Source of the DNA: Gemmatimonadaceae bacterium
Lineage (GTDB): Bacteria; Gemmatimonadota; Gemmatimonadetes; Gemmatimonadales; Gemmatimonadaceae
Direction: 5' to 3'
Assembly: GCA_030835125.1 (NCBI GenBank)
Contig: JAUQWM010000047.1
Coordinates: 1 to 55,916, forward strand
DNA: 55,916 nucleotides
The notes under the pieces were generated by a model, which ran no database searches, had not been told where the DNA came from, and saw only the letters and a list, made by a program, of their open reading frames with translations. Below, one piece after another: positions 22,825-55,916 of this stretch. Made by a program: the position numbers and the translations under genes. Positions within the stretch are counted from its first letter, which is position 1, and each line of letters begins with the position of its first letter.

Positions 22825-22843
22825 CGGCTGGCTGTTGGTTTCC

Positions 22844-22878
22844 CCTCGACCCTCGACCCTCGACCCTCGACCCTCACT
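22844..22878. repeat. Heptad array CCTCGAC (CGAGGGT on - strand)
   Basis: Four perfect tandem copies of CCTCGAC fill 22844-22871, followed by a degenerate CCTCACT. On the - strand the DUF2911 stop codon TGA is the first three bases of the array (TGAGGGT, then CGAGGGT units). Confidence 0.95.
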
Positions 22879-24162: not shown

Positions 24163-25632
24163 TCAGTCGTCGAACCCGGCTTCTCCGTTCCCCGAGCCCG
24201 GATTTGCCGCCTTCGACGCCGGAGCCGGTGCGATGATTCCCTCGTAGGTCTCGGTCGGGATCCTGAACGACGCGGCGAGCTGCGGCTCGAGATCCTTGTT
24301 CAGCACCCGGCGCGCGACGTATTCGCCGATCACCGGACCCGACTTGAACGCTTCCGCGGAGCCGCCGCCCGCGATCCAGGCGTTCAGGATATCGGGGTGC
24401 CGATCGATGATGAAATTGCGCGACGAACTCTGCTCGTAGTGGCAGGCACGCGTCTCGTTGAGCGGCTGGTCCTTCATCAAAGGGATGCGCTCGGCCAGGA
24501 AGTTTCGCGCGCGCTCGACGGTGAGGGGATCGACATAGCGATCGCTCAGGTCCGGATCCTGTTCGGGGCCGCCAATGATCTGCGGTCCCGCCGGCACCGG
24601 GGGGAGCGGGCTCTGGCTGCCGCCACCGCCACCGCCCCGACCACCGCCTCCTCCCCCGCCACCACCGCGTACACGCAGGCCGCGACTGTCGAACGGCAGC
24701 GTGGGCCAGCCGGTGACGCCCGGGAAGTTGAAGCTGGGCATGTTGGGGAACTCGAAGCGATTGTCCCCATGCGGGGTCGCGAAGTAACAGACGCGTCCGA
24801 TCGGCTGCCGCATCCGCATCCCGAGGAGCCCGGGAAAGGTCTTCCCCAGCCACGGGCCCAGCGCGAACACGTAATGCTGCGCCTTGACGGTGTCGTGCGT
24901 GTTGAGGATGAGGCTCCCGATCCGCCCATTCTCGAGCGGCCCGGGATAGGCGCGCGCCACCACCACATCGCCGCCCATCTTCTGGAACACCTCGGCGACG
25001 CACTGCGTTGCGCGGCGCGCCCGGACGACGCCGGCCTCGTTTTCGTACAGGCAGGCCGTGATCCCGCGCAGGTCGAACTGCGGGAACTCCTTCTTCGCGA
25101 TCTCGACGTCCACCGACTCGTGCTTGATCCCGTTCTTCACGAACAGGTCCCGGGTCGTCTTGGTGAAGTTCTCCCACTCGTTCCGGAAGATGAAGTCACC
25201 CGTGGTCACGAACAGGCGCATCTTGAGTTCGCGCCCCCACTCGTCATCCCACGCCTTCCAGCGCTGGATCGACCGGCTCGCCCACTGCATCCATTGTTCG
25301 CCGTGGGGTCGGTCGCCGTACGAGGTGCGGACGCCTCGCGTCTCGTCGCCGGACGTGGACCGCGAGTTGCCCGGCCCATAGGCGTCGACCAGGACGACCG
25401 ACGCACCGAGCTTCCGCGCCCAGTAGGCCGTCCATCCACCGAACGCCCCGGCGCCGATCACCGCGACGTCATACGTCTTGCCGTTGACGGCCGGTGCGCC
25501 AAGGAACCGGTCCACCGCTGCCGTGGGCTCCGGCGGTGAGGCCGCGCCGAGTGACGACGCACCAACGGCCAGCAGGCCAGCCTGAGCACTGGCGGTCTTG
25601 AGGAAATCGCGTCTATGCAGGGAATCAGTCAT
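24163..25632 (-). CDS. Tat-exported FAD-dependent oxidoreductase (DAO family)
   Basis: The 489-residue protein has a Tat signal (RRDFLKTASAQAG) and a dinucleotide-binding start VAVIGAGAFGGWTAYWARKLG, then the DAO/sarcosine-oxidase-like segments HGEQWMQWASRSIQRW and NFIIDRHPDILNAWIAGGGS. It likely oxidises an amine or amino acid outside the cytoplasm, with FAD loaded before export. Around residues 325-343 a Gly/Arg low-complexity tract (nine Gly, Arg, six Gly) is inserted; it is encoded by a C-rich triplet run at 24619-24668 that could vary in length. Two NHL proteins lie upstream on the same strand. The substrate is unknown. Confidence 0.83.
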   Translation of the reverse strand: MTDSLHRRDFLKTASAQAGLLAVGASSLGAASPPEPTAAVDRFLGAPAVNGKTYDVAVIGAGAFGGWTAYWARKLGASVVLVDAYGPGNSRSTSGDETRGVRTSYGDRPHGEQWMQWASRSIQRWKAWDDEWGRELKMRLFVTTGDFIFRNEWENFTKTTRDLFVKNGIKHESVDVEIAKKEFPQFDLRGITACLYENEAGVVRARRATQCVAEVFQKMGGDVVVARAYPGPLENGRIGSLILNTHDTVKAQHYVFALGPWLGKTFPGLLGMRMRQPIGRVCYFATPHGDNRFEFPNMPSFNFPGVTGWPTLPFDSRGLRVRGGGGGGGGGRGGGGGGSQSPLPPVPAGPQIIGGPEQDPDLSDRYVDPLTVERARNFLAERIPLMKDQPLNETRACHYEQSSSRNFIIDRHPDILNAWIAGGGSAEAFKSGPVIGEYVARRVLNKDLEPQLAASFRIPTETYEGIIAPAPASKAANPGSGNGEAGFDD

Positions 25633-25640
25633 CGATCCAG

Positions 25641-25682
25641 CGAGTCACGAGTCACGAGTCACGAGTCACGAATCACGAGTCA
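25641..25682. repeat. Heptad array CGAGTCA
   Basis: Six tandem units, CGAGTCA x4, CGAATCA, CGAGTCA, occupy the whole gap between the oxidoreductase start and the NHL stop. The last three bases are the NHL stop codon (TGA on the - strand). Confidence 0.97.
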
Positions 25683-26879
25683 CTTCTTCGGCCACACGAC
25701 GCCCTGGTTGCGCGGCACCCGTCCCATTCCCTTGTAGACGAATTTCTGGAGCCGTTTTCCTTCGTAGGTCTCGGTCGTGTAGATGTTGCCGCGGCTGTCC
25801 GTCGCGATCGAGTGCACCGCGAACCACTGGCCGGGCTGCCGCCCGCCGTCGCCGAACTGCGTGAGGATCTCGAGCGACTGGCGATCGATCACGTAGATCT
25901 TCTCGTTCTTTCCATCGGCCAGGTACAGGTACTTCTGCGCCGGGTCGCGCGAGAAGGCGATGTCCCACACCGCGCCGTCCCCGAGCGTCTTCGGCGCGAT
26001 GCGCGCCTCCTTCACGAACTTCCCGTCCTTCTGGAAGACCTGGATCCGGTTGTTCGGGCGGTCGCACACGTACACGAGCCCGTCACGCGTGGGCTCGGCG
26101 CAGTGGACCGGGGTGCGGAACTGGGGAATCACGCCAGAGTCCGGACTGTACGCCCCGTAGTTGGTGTCCGACGGCGCATTGCCGTACGCCCCCCAGAAGC
26201 GCTTGATCTTGCCGGAAGTCATGTCGATCACGGCGACGCGCTTGTTCAGGTAGCCGTCCGATACGTACGCCTCGTTGGCGGCGTCGTCCAGCGACACCTT
26301 GGCCACGCGGCCGAAGTGTTCCATCGACTTGCTGTTCCCCGCCGTGAATCCGGCCGGCGGGTTCTGCACCGGGACGCGGTTCGGGATGCCGAATTCCGCG
26401 ATCAGCTTGCCCTCGTGCGAGAACTTCAGGATGTGCGAGTCATTGGGGCCGTTGCCGCCGATCCACACGTTGTTCTTCTCGTCGATCGAGATGCCGTGGT
26501 TCGAGCCCGGCCACGTGTAGCCCTGACCGGGGCCACCCCAGCTGTTGACCAGGTTCCCGGCCGGATCGAATTCCAGCACCGGCGGCGCGCCCTTGCAGCA
26601 CTCGCTGGTCGGCGGGCTGGTCCCCGCCCCGTTCTCCGCCTCGTTCATCGTGTCCTGCCGGTGCACGATGAACACGTGATCGCGCGAATCCACGCCGACG
26701 CCGATCGCGTTCCCCAGTACCCACTTGTCAGGCAGCGGCTTCGGCCAGAAGGGGTCCACCTCGAACATCGGCGCCTCCACGAGCGGTTGCTGCGATTCCA
26801 GCACCCGCTGCGCCATCGCCAGCGTCACGATGGCCGCCACCCAGCCAACGGCCAGCACTGCCTTCCGCTTCCTGGTCAT
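25680..26879 (-). CDS. Exported NHL-repeat beta-propeller protein 1
   Basis: The 399-residue protein has a signal peptide (MTRKRKAVLAVGWVAAIVTLAMA) and an NHL-type propeller with repeats such as VGVDSRDHVFIVHR, NNVWIGGNGPNDSHILKFS, LVYVCDRPNNRIQVFQKDG and YLADGKNEKIYVID. A conserved ECC and a WGGPGQGY segment are shared with the neighbouring paralogue. It is related to peptidyl-hydroxyglycine-lyase-like propellers, but function is unknown. It is 19 bases downstream of NHL protein 2. Confidence 0.85.
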   Translation of the reverse strand: MTRKRKAVLAVGWVAAIVTLAMAQRVLESQQPLVEAPMFEVDPFWPKPLPDKWVLGNAIGVGVDSRDHVFIVHRQDTMNEAENGAGTSPPTSECCKGAPPVLEFDPAGNLVNSWGGPGQGYTWPGSNHGISIDEKNNVWIGGNGPNDSHILKFSHEGKLIAEFGIPNRVPVQNPPAGFTAGNSKSMEHFGRVAKVSLDDAANEAYVSDGYLNKRVAVIDMTSGKIKRFWGAYGNAPSDTNYGAYSPDSGVIPQFRTPVHCAEPTRDGLVYVCDRPNNRIQVFQKDGKFVKEARIAPKTLGDGAVWDIAFSRDPAQKYLYLADGKNEKIYVIDRQSLEILTQFGDGGRQPGQWFAVHSIATDSRGNIYTTETYEGKRLQKFVYKGMGRVPRNQGVVWPKK

Positions 26880-26898
26880 CTCGTTTGTCCCCTGGAGG

Positions 26899-28188
26899 TC
26901 ACTTCGGCCACAGCACGCCCTGATTCCGGCTCACCGCCCCGACGCCCTTGAAGACAAAGCGCTGGAGTCGCTTCCCCTGGTCGGCCTCGATCGTGTACAG
27001 GTTGCCCTTCGAGTCCGTCGCCACGCCCGACACGGCCAGGAACTGTCCGGGATACCGGCCGCCCTCACCGAAGCTGGTCAGCAGGTTGAGCGACTGCCGC
27101 TCGATGACGTGCACCTTCATGTTCGAGCCGTCCGCGACGTACAGGTACCGCTGCTGCGGGTCGCGCGAGAAGGCGATGTCCCACACGGCGCCGCTGGCCA
27201 GCGTGCCGGTGGCGAACCGCGCCTCGCGCACGAACGAGCCGTCCTTGCGGAATACCTGGATCCGGTTGTTGCGGGAATCACAGACGTACAGCATGCCGTC
27301 GCTCGCCGATTCGACACACCGGACGCCGGCGAACTGCTTCGATGGCGGGTCGTTCGGCGCATACGCCGAAGGCGCGGCATCGTCAGGCGTCGCCCCGTAG
27401 GCTCCGAAGAAGCGCTTGATCGCGCCGGTGTTCAGGTCGACCACCGCGACGCGACGGTTGCGCATGCCATCGGCGACGAACACCTCGCTCGACGCGGCAT
27501 CAAAGGCAAAGCCGGCCGCTCCCCCGAACATCGTGGTGCTCGTGCTCGCCGGTGGTGCCGTCGGGGCCGCGCCGCGGCCGCCACGCCCGCCTCGCCCGCC
27601 GCGGCCTGCCGCCTGTCCCCGGCCGGGCGACACCCCCGCATACTGCGTGTCGGGCGCCGCCGCGCGTCCGCCCGCGGCGGGCACCTGGAAGGACGCACCA
27701 TACTGCGCCACGAACTTGCCATCGTTCGAGAACTTCAACACGCGCGTATCGGTGCCCCCGATGCCGCCGATCCACAGGTTGCCGGCCGGATCGAGCGCGA
27801 TCCCCGCGTTCTGCGCCGGCCACTCGTAGCCCTGGCCCGGGCCGCCCCAGCTGTTCACCAGGTTGCCCGCCGGGTCGAACTCCAGCACGTTGGGCGCCGA
27901 GCTGCAGCATTCTCCCGCCGGCGTGACGGTGCCGGCACCCGTCTCGGTCCGGGCCGTGAAGCTGTCGGTCAGGTGGATCACGTACACATGGTCCCGCGAG
28001 TCCACCGCGACTCCCGTCGCCGAGCCAAGGAGCCAGTGGTTAGGCATCGGCTTCGGCCACAGGGGATCGACCTCGAACCGGGGCGCCTGCACGGTGCCCC
28101 CGCCCTGACCGGCCGCGTGGACCACCGCCACTGTCCCGAGCGACGCGACCGCGCCTGCCGCCACCAGAATCGGACCCATGCGCTTCAT
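26899..28188 (-). CDS. Exported NHL-repeat beta-propeller protein 2
   Basis: The 429-residue paralogue of the downstream gene shares FEVDPLWPKPMPNHWLLG, ECC, SWGGPGQGYEWP and the final NQGVLWPK. The ATG at 28188 has GGAGG upstream; the frame stays open further up but runs into repeats. It carries an insert absent from its paralogue, AAGRGGRGGRGGRGAAP (about residues 190-205). Both are periplasmic and probably co-transcribed with the FAD oxidoreductase. Confidence 0.85.
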   Translation of the reverse strand: MKRMGPILVAAGAVASLGTVAVVHAAGQGGGTVQAPRFEVDPLWPKPMPNHWLLGSATGVAVDSRDHVYVIHLTDSFTARTETGAGTVTPAGECCSSAPNVLEFDPAGNLVNSWGGPGQGYEWPAQNAGIALDPAGNLWIGGIGGTDTRVLKFSNDGKFVAQYGASFQVPAAGGRAAAPDTQYAGVSPGRGQAAGRGGRGGRGGRGAAPTAPPASTSTTMFGGAAGFAFDAASSEVFVADGMRNRRVAVVDLNTGAIKRFFGAYGATPDDAAPSAYAPNDPPSKQFAGVRCVESASDGMLYVCDSRNNRIQVFRKDGSFVREARFATGTLASGAVWDIAFSRDPQQRYLYVADGSNMKVHVIERQSLNLLTSFGEGGRYPGQFLAVSGVATDSKGNLYTIEADQGKRLQRFVFKGVGAVSRNQGVLWPK

Positions 28189-28212
28189 CGAACAGCCTCC
28201 AGGGGACAGCGA

Positions 28213-28240
28213 CGAGTTGCGAGTTGCGCGTTGCGAGTGG
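28213..28240. repeat. Heptad array CGAGTTG
   Basis: CGAGTTG CGAGTTG CGCGTTG CGAGTGG lies 25 bases upstream of the NHL protein 2 start, in the divergent gap to the HupE-like gene. Outside the array, this gap shows no gene. Confidence 0.85.
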
Positions 28241-28375
28241 GGAGCCCCAATTCCGTGCCGGATACCGATCACCACCGCCGACACCGGCCAATAGCGATTC
28301 CGGGGACTCGTCCGTAAACCAACCACGCCGGATTATTCTACGTTTCGTCCCGCCAATCCGTTAGGGCGCATTCGC

Positions 28376-29764
28376 TTGGCCGTTTCTCCCATCGACGGGC
28401 AGTCTCTGCACCGCAGCGCGCGCCGCGCGCTGCGCGCCGCGGCATTGGGCATGGTGCTCGTCGCCACGCCGACGAGCCTCGACGCGCACGAGGTCCCCGC
28501 CAGCGTCGCCGTGCAGGTCTACGTGCGGCCCGAGGGATCGCGGTTGCGCCTCCTTGTCCGCGCGCCCCTGAACGCGATGCGCGACCTCACCTTTCCGCTG
28601 CGCGGCCCCGGGTACCTCGATTTCACGCGGCTCGGCACGCAGCCCCGGGACGCCGCCCGCCTCTGGATCGCCGACTACCTGCGGGTCTTCGAGAACGATC
28701 GGGAGTTGCCCGAGGAGACCATCGTCGCCACGCGGCTCGCCCTTCCCTCCGACCGGTCCTTCGTGAGCTATGACTCCGCGCTGGCCGGCATCCTCGGACC
28801 GCCGCTCCCCGCCGACACGGAGATCATGTGGGACCAGCTCCGGCTCGATGTCCTTCTTGAGGTCCCGATCGAATCGCAGGACTCGCGATTCTCCATCGAC
28901 CCCAGGCTGGCGCACCTCGGCGTCCAGACGGTGAGCGTCCTGCATTTCGTGACGCCCGTGGGGGCGGAGCGCGTGTTCCAGTACGACAGCAACCCGGGAC
29001 TCGTCAGGCTCGATCCCCGCTGGCACCAGGCGGCGGCGCGCTTCGTGGCCCTTGGCTTCCAGCACATCCTGGGGGGGTTCGACCACCTGCTGTTCGTGCT
29101 GTGCCTCGTCGTGCCCATCCGGCGCCTGCGGCCCCTGGTGGCGGTCATCACGTCCTTCACCATCGCCCACTCGATCACGCTCATCGCGTCGGCCCTGGGG
29201 CTTGCGCCAAACGCCCTCTGGTTCCCGCCGCTGATCGAGACCCTGATCGCCGTCTCGATCGTGTACATGGCGCTCGAGAACATCGTGGGCGCACGGCTCG
29301 AGCGTCGCTGGGTGCTCGCCTTCGGCTTCGGGCTGGTGCACGGCTTCGGCTTCTCGTTCGCGCTGCGGGAATCGCTGCAGTTTGCCGGGGCACACCTCCT
29401 GACGTCGCTGCTCGCCTTCAACGTCGGGGTCGAGCTCGGGCAGCTCCTGGTCATCGCCATCGCGCTCCCCGTGCTGGCGGCGCTTTACCGTTGGGTGGTC
29501 CCGGAGCGGATCGGGGGGATCGTGATTTCGGCCATCCTGGCCCACAGCGCCTGGCACTGGATGACCGCCCGTTTCGCGATCCTCCGGGAATACCGGATCC
29601 AGTGGCCGGCGCTGGACATGACCTCGCTGCCGGGTCTCCTGCGCTGGCTGATGCTCCTGCTTATCGTCATTGGGATCGGCTGGCTGGTGTCGGGTACGCT
29701 GACCCGGCTCGCCGGGCCACTCCGCCCGGGCCTGGGAACCGGGGACGAAGGACGAGGAATCTGA
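28376..29764 (+). CDS. HupE/UreJ family membrane protein
   Basis: The 462-residue protein has a signal-like N-terminus ending in DAHEV, a periplasmic domain of about 200 residues, then about seven membrane segments. Histidine motifs are FQHILGGFDHLLFVL, TIAHSITLIAS and LVHGFGFSFAL, as in HupE/UreJ_2 proteins thought to move nickel or cobalt or to assist metalloenzymes. The start is TTG at 28376; the next in-frame ATG (28451) would cut the signal. It leads the cytochrome/PQQ dehydrogenase run. No hydrogenase or urease is nearby. Confidence 0.8.
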   Translation: MAVSPIDGQSLHRSARRALRAAALGMVLVATPTSLDAHEVPASVAVQVYVRPEGSRLRLLVRAPLNAMRDLTFPLRGPGYLDFTRLGTQPRDAARLWIADYLRVFENDRELPEETIVATRLALPSDRSFVSYDSALAGILGPPLPADTEIMWDQLRLDVLLEVPIESQDSRFSIDPRLAHLGVQTVSVLHFVTPVGAERVFQYDSNPGLVRLDPRWHQAAARFVALGFQHILGGFDHLLFVLCLVVPIRRLRPLVAVITSFTIAHSITLIASALGLAPNALWFPPLIETLIAVSIVYMALENIVGARLERRWVLAFGFGLVHGFGFSFALRESLQFAGAHLLTSLLAFNVGVELGQLLVIAIALPVLAALYRWVVPERIGGIVISAILAHSAWHWMTARFAILREYRIQWPALDMTSLPGLLRWLMLLLIVIGIGWLVSGTLTRLAGPLRPGLGTGDEGRGI

Positions 29765-29768
29765 CCGA

Positions 29769-30221
29769 ATGAAGCGCAACTCGAGTCCGGGCTGGACTTT
29801 GCTGTTTTCGACCTGCATCCTCGTGCCGGCGATGGAACTCCACGGCCAGGAAGCCGTGGCGGAGGGGCAGCGTTCCACACGCATGGGCGTTTACTCGAGG
29901 GAGCAGTGGATGCGGGGGCGGGACATCTACGCGGGGATGTGCGCCGGCTGTCACCCGGCCACGACGCACACCGGTCCCGCGTTCACCGTGTCCTGGGCGG
30001 GGAAGAAGCTGTCGGACCTCTTCGGGTTCATCCGGGAGCGGATGCCGAAGAACGATCCGGGCAGCCTGTCCGAGCAGGAGTACGTGGACGTCATGTCCTA
30101 CATGTTGCGGTTGAACGGGATGCCCCAGGGCGTCGAGGAACTGCCGGCGGACTCGGTCGCGCTGACCAGGATCCGCATCGACAGTTCGCGGGTTGCGCCG
30201 CCGGCCCCGGTTCAACGTTAG
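29769..30221 (+). CDS. c-type cytochrome, exported
   Basis: The 150-residue protein has a signal peptide and a single heme c site, CAGCH, with a likely axial methionine in RERMPKNDPGSL, as in class I cytochromes. It starts four bases after the HupE-like gene and lies 47 bases before the PQQ dehydrogenase, so it probably accepts electrons from that enzyme. The stop codon is inside a CGTTAGGC motif. Confidence 0.9.
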   Translation: MKRNSSPGWTLLFSTCILVPAMELHGQEAVAEGQRSTRMGVYSREQWMRGRDIYAGMCAGCHPATTHTGPAFTVSWAGKKLSDLFGFIRERMPKNDPGSLSEQEYVDVMSYMLRLNGMPQGVEELPADSVALTRIRIDSSRVAPPAPVQR

Positions 30222-30268
30222 GCAGTGCAGGCACCACCCGGACCATCCTACAGCGAAGGGGAGAGCTC

Positions 30269-32551
30269 ATGAAGGAGCGGTTGACACTGCGTCGTGGGGG
30301 CATGGCCGCACTGGCGGTGGCGGTCGTCGCCATTGGCCTGGCCGTGCGCGCGGAGCGCTCGGAGGCCGTGCAGGGGGCTGCGAAGGTCCGCGGCAACGTG
30401 CCCGGGGAGTGGCGCTATTGGGGCGGCGACGCCTGGAGCACGCGGTACTCGTCGCTCGACCAGATCAATGCGTCGAACTTCGGCTCGCTCGAGGTCGCGT
30501 GGCAGTGGAGCGCGAGCCCGCTGGGCGCTGACGAGTATTACCGGACCACGCCCCTCTACGCCAATGGCCGCATCTTCACCGTCGCGACCACGCGCCGGGT
30601 CGCGGCGGCGATCGACCCGGAGTCCGGGGAAACGCTCTGGATGTGGCGACTCAATGAGGGCATCCGCTGGCAGAAGGCGCCGCGGCAGTTCGCCGGTCGC
30701 GGACTGGCGTACTGGCAGAACGGCAATGACGAACGCGTCATCGTGGTGACGCCGGGATACCACCTGGCCTCGCTCGATGCCCGCACCGGCATCCCCGACC
30801 CGGCATTCGGCACCAACGGCGTCGTGGACCTGATGGATGGCCTGGACCTGCCGCTCGTTCCGCTCGCGGTGGACGATTCCCTCTCACTGGAAATCAGCGA
30901 CGTGCGTCCCGCGCGGAAGGCGCGGCCGGGAGAAACCTGGGATCCCGTGAAGAAGATCGGCGCCGACGGGACGATCGGCATCGATCCCTCGTACGGACAG
31001 ATCGCGAACAGCTCGCCGGCCATCGTCGTGAACGACGTGATCATCGTCGGCAACTCGTCGATCCACGGGTACTATCCGGTCCGGGTCCGCAACATCCCGG
31101 GCTACATTCGCGGGTTCGACGCCCGGACCGGCAAGCAGCTCTGGAAGTTCAACCTCGTTCCCCAGCCCGGTGAGTTCGGCGCCGAGACCTGGGAGAATGG
31201 GTCGAAGATCGGCACCGAGGGCGTTGGCAAGAACGACGCCTGGGCCACCTACTCAGGCGATCCGGACCTGGGCCTGGTCTACATCCCGGTCGGCATGCCG
31301 CTGATGGACGAGTACGGCGGGCATCGTCCCGGCGCCAACCTGTACGGCAACTCGATCGTCGCGCTCGACGTGAAGACCGGCCAGCGGAAGTGGCACTTCC
31401 AGATGGTGCACCACGACATCTGGGACTACGACACGCCGATGGCGCCGAACCTGCTGGACGTCACGATCAACGGACGCCCGCGCAAGATCATCGCCCAGAC
31501 GACGAAGCAGGGCTGGATCTACACTTTCGACCGCGTGACCGGCGAACCCATCTGGCCGATGCCGGAAACGCCCGTGCTGCAGAGCGACGTGCCGGGTGAG
31601 AAGACCTGGCCCACGCAACCCATCCCGTCGCGCCCGGAGCCCTACTCGCACCAGGGCCTCGAGGAAAACGACCTCATCGACTATACGCCCGCCATCAGGG
31701 ACTCGGCGCTCAAGCTGGCGAAGGTGTGCCGTATGGGCCCGCACTTCATTCCCGCGTCGCTGGCGGACGGCTCGGGCCGTGGCGCATACCGGTGCTCGTG
31801 GTACGCGCCCGGCGCCAGCGGCGGCGTGAACATCGACGGCGGCGCCGCGGTCGACCCGGAAACCGGCATGATGTTCGTCGGTGGCCAGAGCGGACTTGGC
31901 ACCATCCAGTTGCAGAAGGATCCCTGCTCCGAGTTCCGTTACAGCTCTCCACGGGACAACTGCGGCAAGCTCGGCGCGCTGCCGCCGCCTCCGGGGTACA
32001 CGCCCCAGGCGGTGGGATCCGGACGCCAGGCGGCGGTCACGCAGATCGGCGGCGTCTCCATCCTCAAGCCGAAGGAACTCGGCGGCGTCACCGGATACGA
32101 CATGACCACCGGCGACAAGAAGTGGTGGATCCCGAACGGCGGCGTGATGCGCCCGGTCACGTCGGAGTCGCCGATGTTCGCGGGAGTCACCCTGCCTCCG
32201 GTTCCCGCCATCGGCGGCCAGCCGCAGGTGATCAACACCAGGACCCTCATGATCTACGGCACCGGACGCTCGGGTGGCGCCGGCGGTGGTCGTGGCGGCC
32301 GGGCGGGAGCGGCGGGCGCACAGCCGGCCAATACGCCCCAGCTCTACGCCATCGACAAGGCGACCGGGAAGCAGGTCGCGTCGGTGCGCATCCCGCAGGT
32401 CAACACCGCGGTACCGATGACGTTCCTGCACAAGGGGAAGCAGTACATCGTCTTCGCCTACGGGGCGGGCGGCAACACCGGCCTCACGGCGCTGACGCTG
32501 CCGGCCGCCCCCGCGGGCGGTTCGCGGAATGGAAGCACCGGGACGAGATAA
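30269..32551 (+). CDS. PQQ-dependent dehydrogenase (glucose/alcohol dehydrogenase family)
   Basis: The 760-residue protein has a signal peptide, then the eight-bladed quinoprotein pattern starting WRYWGGDAWSTRYSSLDQIN. Motifs such as VHHDIWDYDTPMAPNLLDV and TKQGWIYTFDRVTGEPIWP are those of membrane glucose-dehydrogenase-type PQQ enzymes. It would oxidise a sugar or alcohol in the periplasm and pass electrons to the upstream cytochrome c. GGGGAG lies before the ATG. A Gly/Arg-rich insert (GGAGGGRGGRAGAAGAQ) interrupts blade 8. No PQQ biosynthesis genes are in view. Confidence 0.9.
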   Translation: MKERLTLRRGGMAALAVAVVAIGLAVRAERSEAVQGAAKVRGNVPGEWRYWGGDAWSTRYSSLDQINASNFGSLEVAWQWSASPLGADEYYRTTPLYANGRIFTVATTRRVAAAIDPESGETLWMWRLNEGIRWQKAPRQFAGRGLAYWQNGNDERVIVVTPGYHLASLDARTGIPDPAFGTNGVVDLMDGLDLPLVPLAVDDSLSLEISDVRPARKARPGETWDPVKKIGADGTIGIDPSYGQIANSSPAIVVNDVIIVGNSSIHGYYPVRVRNIPGYIRGFDARTGKQLWKFNLVPQPGEFGAETWENGSKIGTEGVGKNDAWATYSGDPDLGLVYIPVGMPLMDEYGGHRPGANLYGNSIVALDVKTGQRKWHFQMVHHDIWDYDTPMAPNLLDVTINGRPRKIIAQTTKQGWIYTFDRVTGEPIWPMPETPVLQSDVPGEKTWPTQPIPSRPEPYSHQGLEENDLIDYTPAIRDSALKLAKVCRMGPHFIPASLADGSGRGAYRCSWYAPGASGGVNIDGGAAVDPETGMMFVGGQSGLGTIQLQKDPCSEFRYSSPRDNCGKLGALPPPPGYTPQAVGSGRQAAVTQIGGVSILKPKELGGVTGYDMTTGDKKWWIPNGGVMRPVTSESPMFAGVTLPPVPAIGGQPQVINTRTLMIYGTGRSGGAGGGRGGRAGAAGAQPANTPQLYAIDKATGKQVASVRIPQVNTAVPMTFLHKGKQYIVFAYGAGGNTGLTALTLPAAPAGGSRNGSTGTR

Positions 32552-37247: not shown

Positions 37248-37283
37248 GGGTATGTAGCGTGCATGTGCCGGATCACTGGCGTC

Positions 37284-37322
37284 TGATGCCTGTGATGCCT
37301 GATGCCTGATGCCTGATGCCTG
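37284..37322. repeat. Heptad array TGATGCC (CAGGCAT on - strand)
   Basis: Five copies of TGATGCC occur, with a two-base TG insertion after the first. The array lies between the divergent VOC and otsAB starts, 51 bases from the otsAB ATG. Confidence 0.95.
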
Positions 37323-55835: not shown

Positions 55836-55888
55836 TTACGCCTCACGCCTTGAGCTTTGCACTCTGCACTCTGCACTCTGCACTCTGC
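55836..55888. repeat. Heptad array ACTCTGC (AGAGTGC on - strand)
   Basis: Four perfect tandem ACTCTGC units (55861-55888) are preceded in phase by degenerate units TTACGCC TCACGCC TTGAGCT. The array is upstream of the Tat aminotransferase gene. The last bases of the window show nothing more. Confidence 0.93.
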
Positions 55889-55916
55889 AATTCTTCAGCT
55901 CCAGGGCGGCTTCACT

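Follow-up and report, generated by a model that had tools for sequence, protein, structure and literature searches.

Glycine/arginine-rich loops recur in exported proteins of a Gemmatimonadaceae genome and of certain related genera

Tracts of glycine and arginine are best known from the RGG/RG motif regions (RGG boxes, after arginine-glycine-glycine) of RNA-binding proteins, and are usually read as signs of RNA binding and of intracellular condensates. In bacterial low-complexity tracts arginine is heavily under-represented and the arginine-rich ones are tied to RNA binding, according to a survey of such regions in prokaryotes (PMC6821194). Here we analyse a 55,916-nucleotide contig of a Gemmatimonadaceae bacterium (JAUQWM010000047.1, assembly GCA_030835125.1; this whole stretch is the window below), in which a block of redox genes at positions 24163-32551 encodes a flavin adenine dinucleotide (FAD) oxidoreductase, two NHL proteins and a pyrroloquinoline quinone (PQQ) dehydrogenase. 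Gly/Arg tracts are present in the FAD protein, NHL protein 2 (NHL2) and the PQQ protein and NHL protein 1 (NHL1) lacks one, as a sequence-only reading of the block had claimed, yet they belong to a wider set: an exported RGG-type class is present in this genome and in certain related genera, and is not specific to the redox block. The tracts resemble the published prokaryotic regions in being glycine-rich and bacterial but differ in being arginine-rich and mostly exported, so that against the arginine scarcity and RNA-binding link reported there the exported set stands out. With RGG boxes they share the Gly/Arg composition and an arginine most often at every third residue, and in NHL2 and the PQQ protein they may also share a lack of structure, which low model confidence predicts. 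The carriers here differ in that most have enzyme domains and are predicted to be exported, away from the RNA compartment. As these are enzyme or propeller proteins with predicted export signals, and not RNA-binding proteins in an RNA compartment, we do not class the tracts as RNA-binding RGG boxes; the RGG motif alone is insufficient to call a protein RNA-binding. No report of Gly/Arg inserts in exported bacterial proteins was among the matches listed, by title and start of abstract, in searches of the open-licence literature.

The tract of the FAD protein, RGGGGGGGGGRGGGGGG (24619-24669, reverse strand), lies shortly before the segment that aligns to sarcosine oxidase 3m12 from residue 272 onwards. 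The NHL2 insert core, GRGGRGGRGGRG (27571-27606, reverse strand), falls in a loop between strands 159-164 and 226-230 of the AlphaFold2 model (27514-27696, reverse strand), and the PQQ insert core, GGAGGGRGGRAG (32273-32308, forward strand), in a loop between strands 660-664 and 691-696 (32261-32338, forward strand). The predicted local distance difference test score (pLDDT), low values of which are an indirect sign of disorder, is below 50 for NHL2 residues 170-204 (46 sequences, model pLDDT 84.7, predicted template modelling score (pTM) 0.83) and for PQQ residues 667-687 (13 sequences, pLDDT 66.4, pTM 0.74; a weaker model with 187 residues below 50 overall). The sequence-only reading had proposed structure models as a check, and for the two proteins that the models cover, the position of the inserts in low-confidence loops between strands indicates that they are not buried elements; they are probably disordered loops. 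The PQQ protein shares its PQQ domain and propeller fold with the quinoprotein alcohol dehydrogenases (8gy2, 1yiq, 1kb0) and adds the Gly/Arg loop between strands, and NHL2 shares with the NHL propellers of Thin (6d69) and peptidyl-hydroxyglycine lyase (3fvz) the fold, to which it adds a GRG-rich loop.

To place these inserts we counted tracts, scored where 10 of 12 residues were G or R with at least six G and at least one R, in 683 genes (0.84 Mb) of the genome under study (4.48 Mb, here G000) and in samples of related genomes (relatives here are G001, G014, G019, G022, G052, G078, G087, G090 and G211). Genes were called by a program trained on the data themselves and proteins were classed by a simple rule for signal peptides, both home-made and unvalidated, and the sampling was non-random (the G000 and G087 contigs were taken from pattern-hit lists, and the G014 and G022 stretches include PQQ blocks), which affects the rates more than the contrast between classes. 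G000 tracts were carried by 15 of 219 exported-type, 4 of 385 cytoplasmic-type and none of 79 membrane-type proteins (exported vs. cytoplasmic, Fisher p 1.4e-4), those of G014 by 15 of 129, 0 of 175 and 0 of 42 (p 1.6e-6). Among proteins of at least 350 residues, exported and cytoplasmic carriers numbered 15/113 vs. 3/129 in G000 and 15/51 vs. 0/47 in G014; the Gly/Arg-poor G022 had 2/119 exported, 0/171 cytoplasmic and 0/30 membrane carriers. The tracts are beyond chance: in 10 rounds of within-protein shuffling the 683 genes yielded on average 0.1 carriers, where 19 were observed. The sequence-only reading had treated the sharing as local, which does not hold, since tracts recur in 12 of 201 exported G000 proteins outside the window. 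Of the carriers outside the window, 29 were scanned for protein families (all 16 in G000 and 13 of 15 in G014, a few of them truncated where a sampled stretch ended), which returned M14, M28, S9 and M19 peptidases, sortilin/BNR-like proteins, an amidohydrolase, a penicillin amidase, a gamma-glutamyltranspeptidase, a HEAT/cyclophilin protein, ankyrin repeats and others, with no Pfam match in four. The four "cytoplasmic" G000 carriers, some of which may be misclassed, are an NYN-domain protein, a TPM-domain protein, an amidase and a gamma-glutamyltranspeptidase; the first (L245, 9051-10826) has an acid-containing RGG stretch and is the one plausible nucleic-acid-binding carrier in the G000 sample.

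The class is also biased by lineage. With a stricter DNA pattern of three GRG units, frame-blind and with overlapping places counted apart, 179 genomes of the family were searched: four genera (g1, g2, g14 and g19; 30 genomes) gave 241 places vs. 47 for the reversed control, and four others (g5, g22, g23 and g24; 71 genomes) gave 44 vs. 57, the eight genera having been selected after the table was seen and summed by hand, with 78 genomes in neither sum. Base composition does not explain this bias, because coding G+C is similar among samples (0.657 in G014, 0.645 in G022, 0.645 in G087 and 0.634 in G019) and carrier rates differ widely. In G000 itself the short DNA pattern GGNMGNGGNGGNMGNGGN was useless, occurring at 125 places vs. 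119 for the reversed control, and frame-aware gene calls were used for this reason. G211, a class relative with 83 pattern places, was excluded as nearly all its matches are near-copies of one dispersed 9-base AGGTCGCGG-type repeat, found on many contigs and unlike the varied coding tracts of the other genomes. Several contigs start in or near Gly/Arg tracts (C284 of G001, C78 of G078 and C83 of G087) and the G087 PQQ gene is split at its insert (C85/C1), so the tracts may break assemblies.

The same loops were compared in relatives, and the claim that their families lack such inserts fits the PQQ protein. The PQQ segment is 29-31 residues long in 19 of 22 other homologs, and the three with an insert are all Gly/Arg-rich. 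In the FAD protein the claim was wrong: of 24 readable relatives (one further row was unreadable and two rows were its own gene, all left out), 15 have an expanded loop of at least 42 residues and nine have 37-39, two loops being Gly/Arg-rich and many others Pro- or Ala-rich. For NHL2 the insert is shared within its paralogue group; five of 112 other rows in its alignment are Gly/Arg-rich (three distinct genes), a fourth gene (L046) came from the NHL1 alignment, and with partly conserved flanks across these four the insert is older there. An NHL2-like protein of G052 (L182), among the best matches of NHL2, is without it, and NHL1 has 43 residues in the compared segment at the corresponding loop vs. 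a median of 32. In the same-genus G001 the PQQ insert is kept in altered form (a segment of 42 vs. 45 residues, at 85% protein identity), the NHL2 fragment ends ahead of the Gly/Arg core, and for the FAD protein no close homolog turned up. A widened PQQ set with more g14 and g19 members has the insert in 12 of 26 proteins, which were picked to include insert-bearing genera so that this is not a frequency. On a tree built without the insert columns, from which the G087 protein (L302, a fragment at a contig end) was left out, the insert needs at least three changes, gains and losses counted alike; a single clade of all bearers was rejected (approximately unbiased (AU) test, p 0.022, for a group defined by the trait after the tree was seen), and one clade of the ten g14/g19 bearers was not (p 0.165). 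The PQQ protein of G090, of genus g19, has no insert. The rejection of a single clade makes it probable that the PQQ insert arose on more than one occasion at this one loop. Homologous loops could be aligned for 20 of 44 carriers, giving 69 pairs: 39 partners had a short loop or none, 16 a Gly/Arg-rich loop and 14 a loop of another kind, some loops being counted in both directions and paralogues included. G014 also has a series of related exported proteins (L256, 8410-11012, and neighbours) with a shared loop that differs in Gly/Arg content and length; two proteins of the series were scanned, with no Pfam match.

The pattern within the tracts bears on how they are kept. In Gly-rich windows selected by glycine alone, with shuffles as the null, nearest arginines were three residues apart 47 times vs. 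13.5 expected in exported proteins of G000 and G014 (P 0.001, the floor of 1000 shuffles), and adjacent arginines were rare (1 vs. 17.4). Cytoplasmic and membrane proteins gave 5 vs. 2.8 (P 0.13), G022 showed no spacing-3 excess, and exported proteins of G087 and G019 gave 13 pairs vs. 2.4. Repeated, regularly spaced RGG is a property of the set as a whole and not of the FAD tract individually, which holds only two arginines. The exported windows of G000 and G014 are raised in arginine (0.168 and 0.248 vs. backgrounds of 0.093 and 0.076) and lowered in aspartate plus glutamate (0.057 and 0.063 vs. 0.113 and 0.105); the Gly/Arg-poor G022 has no arginine excess (0.077 vs. 0.085). The DNA does not repeat with the protein. 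Adjacent RGG units identical over 9 bases made up 0 of 13 pairs in G000 and 0 of 15 in G014, so that near-identical units of the kind expected from recent replication slippage are absent from all 28, and 1 of 7 in G087 and G019; nor were the first two 9-mers identical in any of 15 G014 and eight G000 pattern hits. Codon identity between adjacent units, pooled over G000 and G014, fell below shuffles (17 of 84 vs. 27.7, P 0.0027). GGT makes up 0.29 and 0.28 of glycine codons in the tracts of G000 and G014 (all classes pooled) vs. 0.17 and 0.14 for glycine before Gly or Arg outside the tracts of exported proteins (p 1.9e-6 and 1.4e-6), CGT is raised too (no significance test), and GGG and CGG are lowered. 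In G014 the tract is in frame in 15 genes vs. 2 across the five other frames. An arginine pattern that persists although the underlying DNA no longer repeats points to selection at the protein level, which probably holds the tracts, themselves likely to be old; the local repeat slippage offered by the sequence-only reading is disfavoured as a recent event, and the tracts should not be read as simple slippage.

The explanation we prefer, and to which we give an even chance, is that all three inserts are examples of RGG-type loops that occur throughout the genome, mainly on exported proteins, and that perhaps arose from duplications, are kept by protein-level selection and have a sticky role at the envelope. 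Tracts would start in loops tolerant of length change, perhaps through short in-frame duplications of 9 bases (Gly-Arg-Gly), and would then be retained by selection on the pattern (arginines spaced by three with glycines separating them, hardly any lysine and few acids), while synonymous change would de-repeat the DNA. Their likeliest job would be that of a flexible, multivalent, cationic sticky loop holding exported enzymes near one another or near envelope polyanions, for which lipopolysaccharide, capsule and extracellular DNA or RNA are candidates. Of the two options in the sequence-only reading, the one favoured is a common role, but as a trait of exported proteins at large rather than of this redox block. 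Such a sizeable set of exported enzymes would show the same sticky sequence used, or at least kept, outside the cytoplasm.

Several points weigh against this explanation. The exported bias, significant in two genomes, is non-significant in the small samples of G087 (exported 3/69, cytoplasmic 2/136, membrane 0/30) and G019 (2/26, 1/52, 0/12), the classes rest on our own signal-peptide rule and gene caller, and Gly-only and Gly+Ala tracts show the bias too, so that it is not proper to arginine. Lysine is nearly absent from the exported Gly-rich windows of G000 and G014 (0.002 and 0.003), which does not fit selection for charge alone, and GC-rich codons (GGN, CGN, GCN) favour arginine anyway; the cytoplasmic Gly-rich windows of G000 are likewise arginine-rich (0.144 vs. 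0.101) and acid-poor (0.044), those of G014 are not. The codon deficit comes from G014 (P 0.005), with G000 by itself at P 0.14, and the frame counts of G000 (19, 0, 44, 6, 2 and 9) put a wrong frame (+2, 44) above the in-frame count, so that the test fails to discriminate there, probably through composition. Identical 9-base units are present in G087, and new tracts may therefore originate by tandem duplication. Purging of tracts from the cytoplasm together with tolerance outside it would yield an identical exported bias, and the function proposed is one we infer.

The strongest rival, rather unlikely in our view but to be taken seriously, is one in which GC-rich repeats grow neutrally and the resulting loops are tolerated on exported proteins and purged from cytoplasmic ones through nucleic-acid binding, with no function outside. 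A mutational source is best supported by the near-absence of lysine and by the identical units of G087, and codon identity at a lag of three in G087 and G019 is in near-significant excess (27 of 68 vs. 21.4, P 0.057). The raised arginine of cytoplasmic windows in G000, the Pro- or Ala-rich FAD loops of many other relatives and the varying PQQ segment (42-60 residues among the 12 insert bearers) also fit neutral growth. It does not account for the persistence of spacing-3 where neighbouring units match in their codons no better than shuffles do (G000) or worse (G014), nor for exported rates as different as those of G014 and G022 at similar coding G+C, and Pro/Ala/Ser/Thr-rich tracts have no significant exported bias in any of three genomes (p 0.13, 0.79 and 0.36).

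A more far-reaching form of the preferred explanation, which we regard as tentative and on balance unlikely, would make the exported RGG boxes a working signal for envelope retention or clustering, binding unrelated enzymes to surface polyanions or into periplasmic condensates and gained repeatedly in certain genera.

It is improbable that the inserts mark partners of one redox complex, joining the FAD, NHL2 and PQQ proteins to each other. The block does have three exported carriers, and G014 has tracts in its PQQ protein and in four more genes less than 12 kb away from it, in a sample where carriers cluster significantly (P 0.0005-0.002), but clustering is non-significant in G000 (P 0.06-0.36), the carriers outside the window belong to unrelated families and most other PQQ homologs lack the insert. 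Slightly less probable still is selection on the nucleic acid, with a G-rich coding strand (possibly an RNA G-quadruplex) as the element and the protein as a by-product, for although Gly and Arg codons are inherently G-rich and a link between the RGG motif and RNA G-quadruplexes is published for RNA-binding proteins (PMC11789052), the exported bias, the in-frame restriction in G014 and the codon shifts in both genomes, which shorten G runs, all oppose it.

The block opens with the FAD-dependent oxidoreductase of the DAO family (24163-25632, reverse strand), identified as such by a domain spanning the full Pfam profile PF01266 (1-353 of 353, E 1.8e-35); sarcosine oxidases are its nearest solved relatives by sequence. 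Its motif HRRDFLK, as read from the sequence, is presumably a twin-arginine (Tat)-like signal. NHL1 (25680-26879, reverse strand), whose closest homologs are encoded mostly on contigs of Gemmatimonadota metagenome-assembled genomes, the best being Gemmatimonadetes or Gemmatimonadaceae, is followed by the beta-propeller NHL2 (26899-28188, reverse strand; 429 residues from the start given by coding score), for which the Thin and lyase structures above are the nearest solved folds. On the forward strand are a HupE/UreJ-like membrane protein (28451-29764, PF13795, start re-derived by gene calling), a cytochrome c (29769-30221, PF13442) and the PQQ-dependent dehydrogenase (30269-32551, PF01011, E 1e-147), a start at 29906 being too far upstream and coding score placing it at 30269. 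A Foldseek match to 8gy2 (E 2.5e-27), with 1yiq and 1kb0 also found, gives it the propeller domain and fold of a quinoprotein alcohol dehydrogenase. The block of G014 has the same order (NHL pair, membrane protein, small cytochrome-like protein, PQQ protein), with homology established for the NHL pair and the PQQ protein. Seven-base units that differ from array to array are repeated in tandem, in about 4-6 copies each, in the window at 2312-2344, 2377-2407, 22843-22875, 25641-25683, 28213-28238, 37283-37322 and 55858-55889, that at 22843-22875 being mostly intergenic and that at 25641-25683 almost entirely within the gap between the FAD protein and NHL1 genes.

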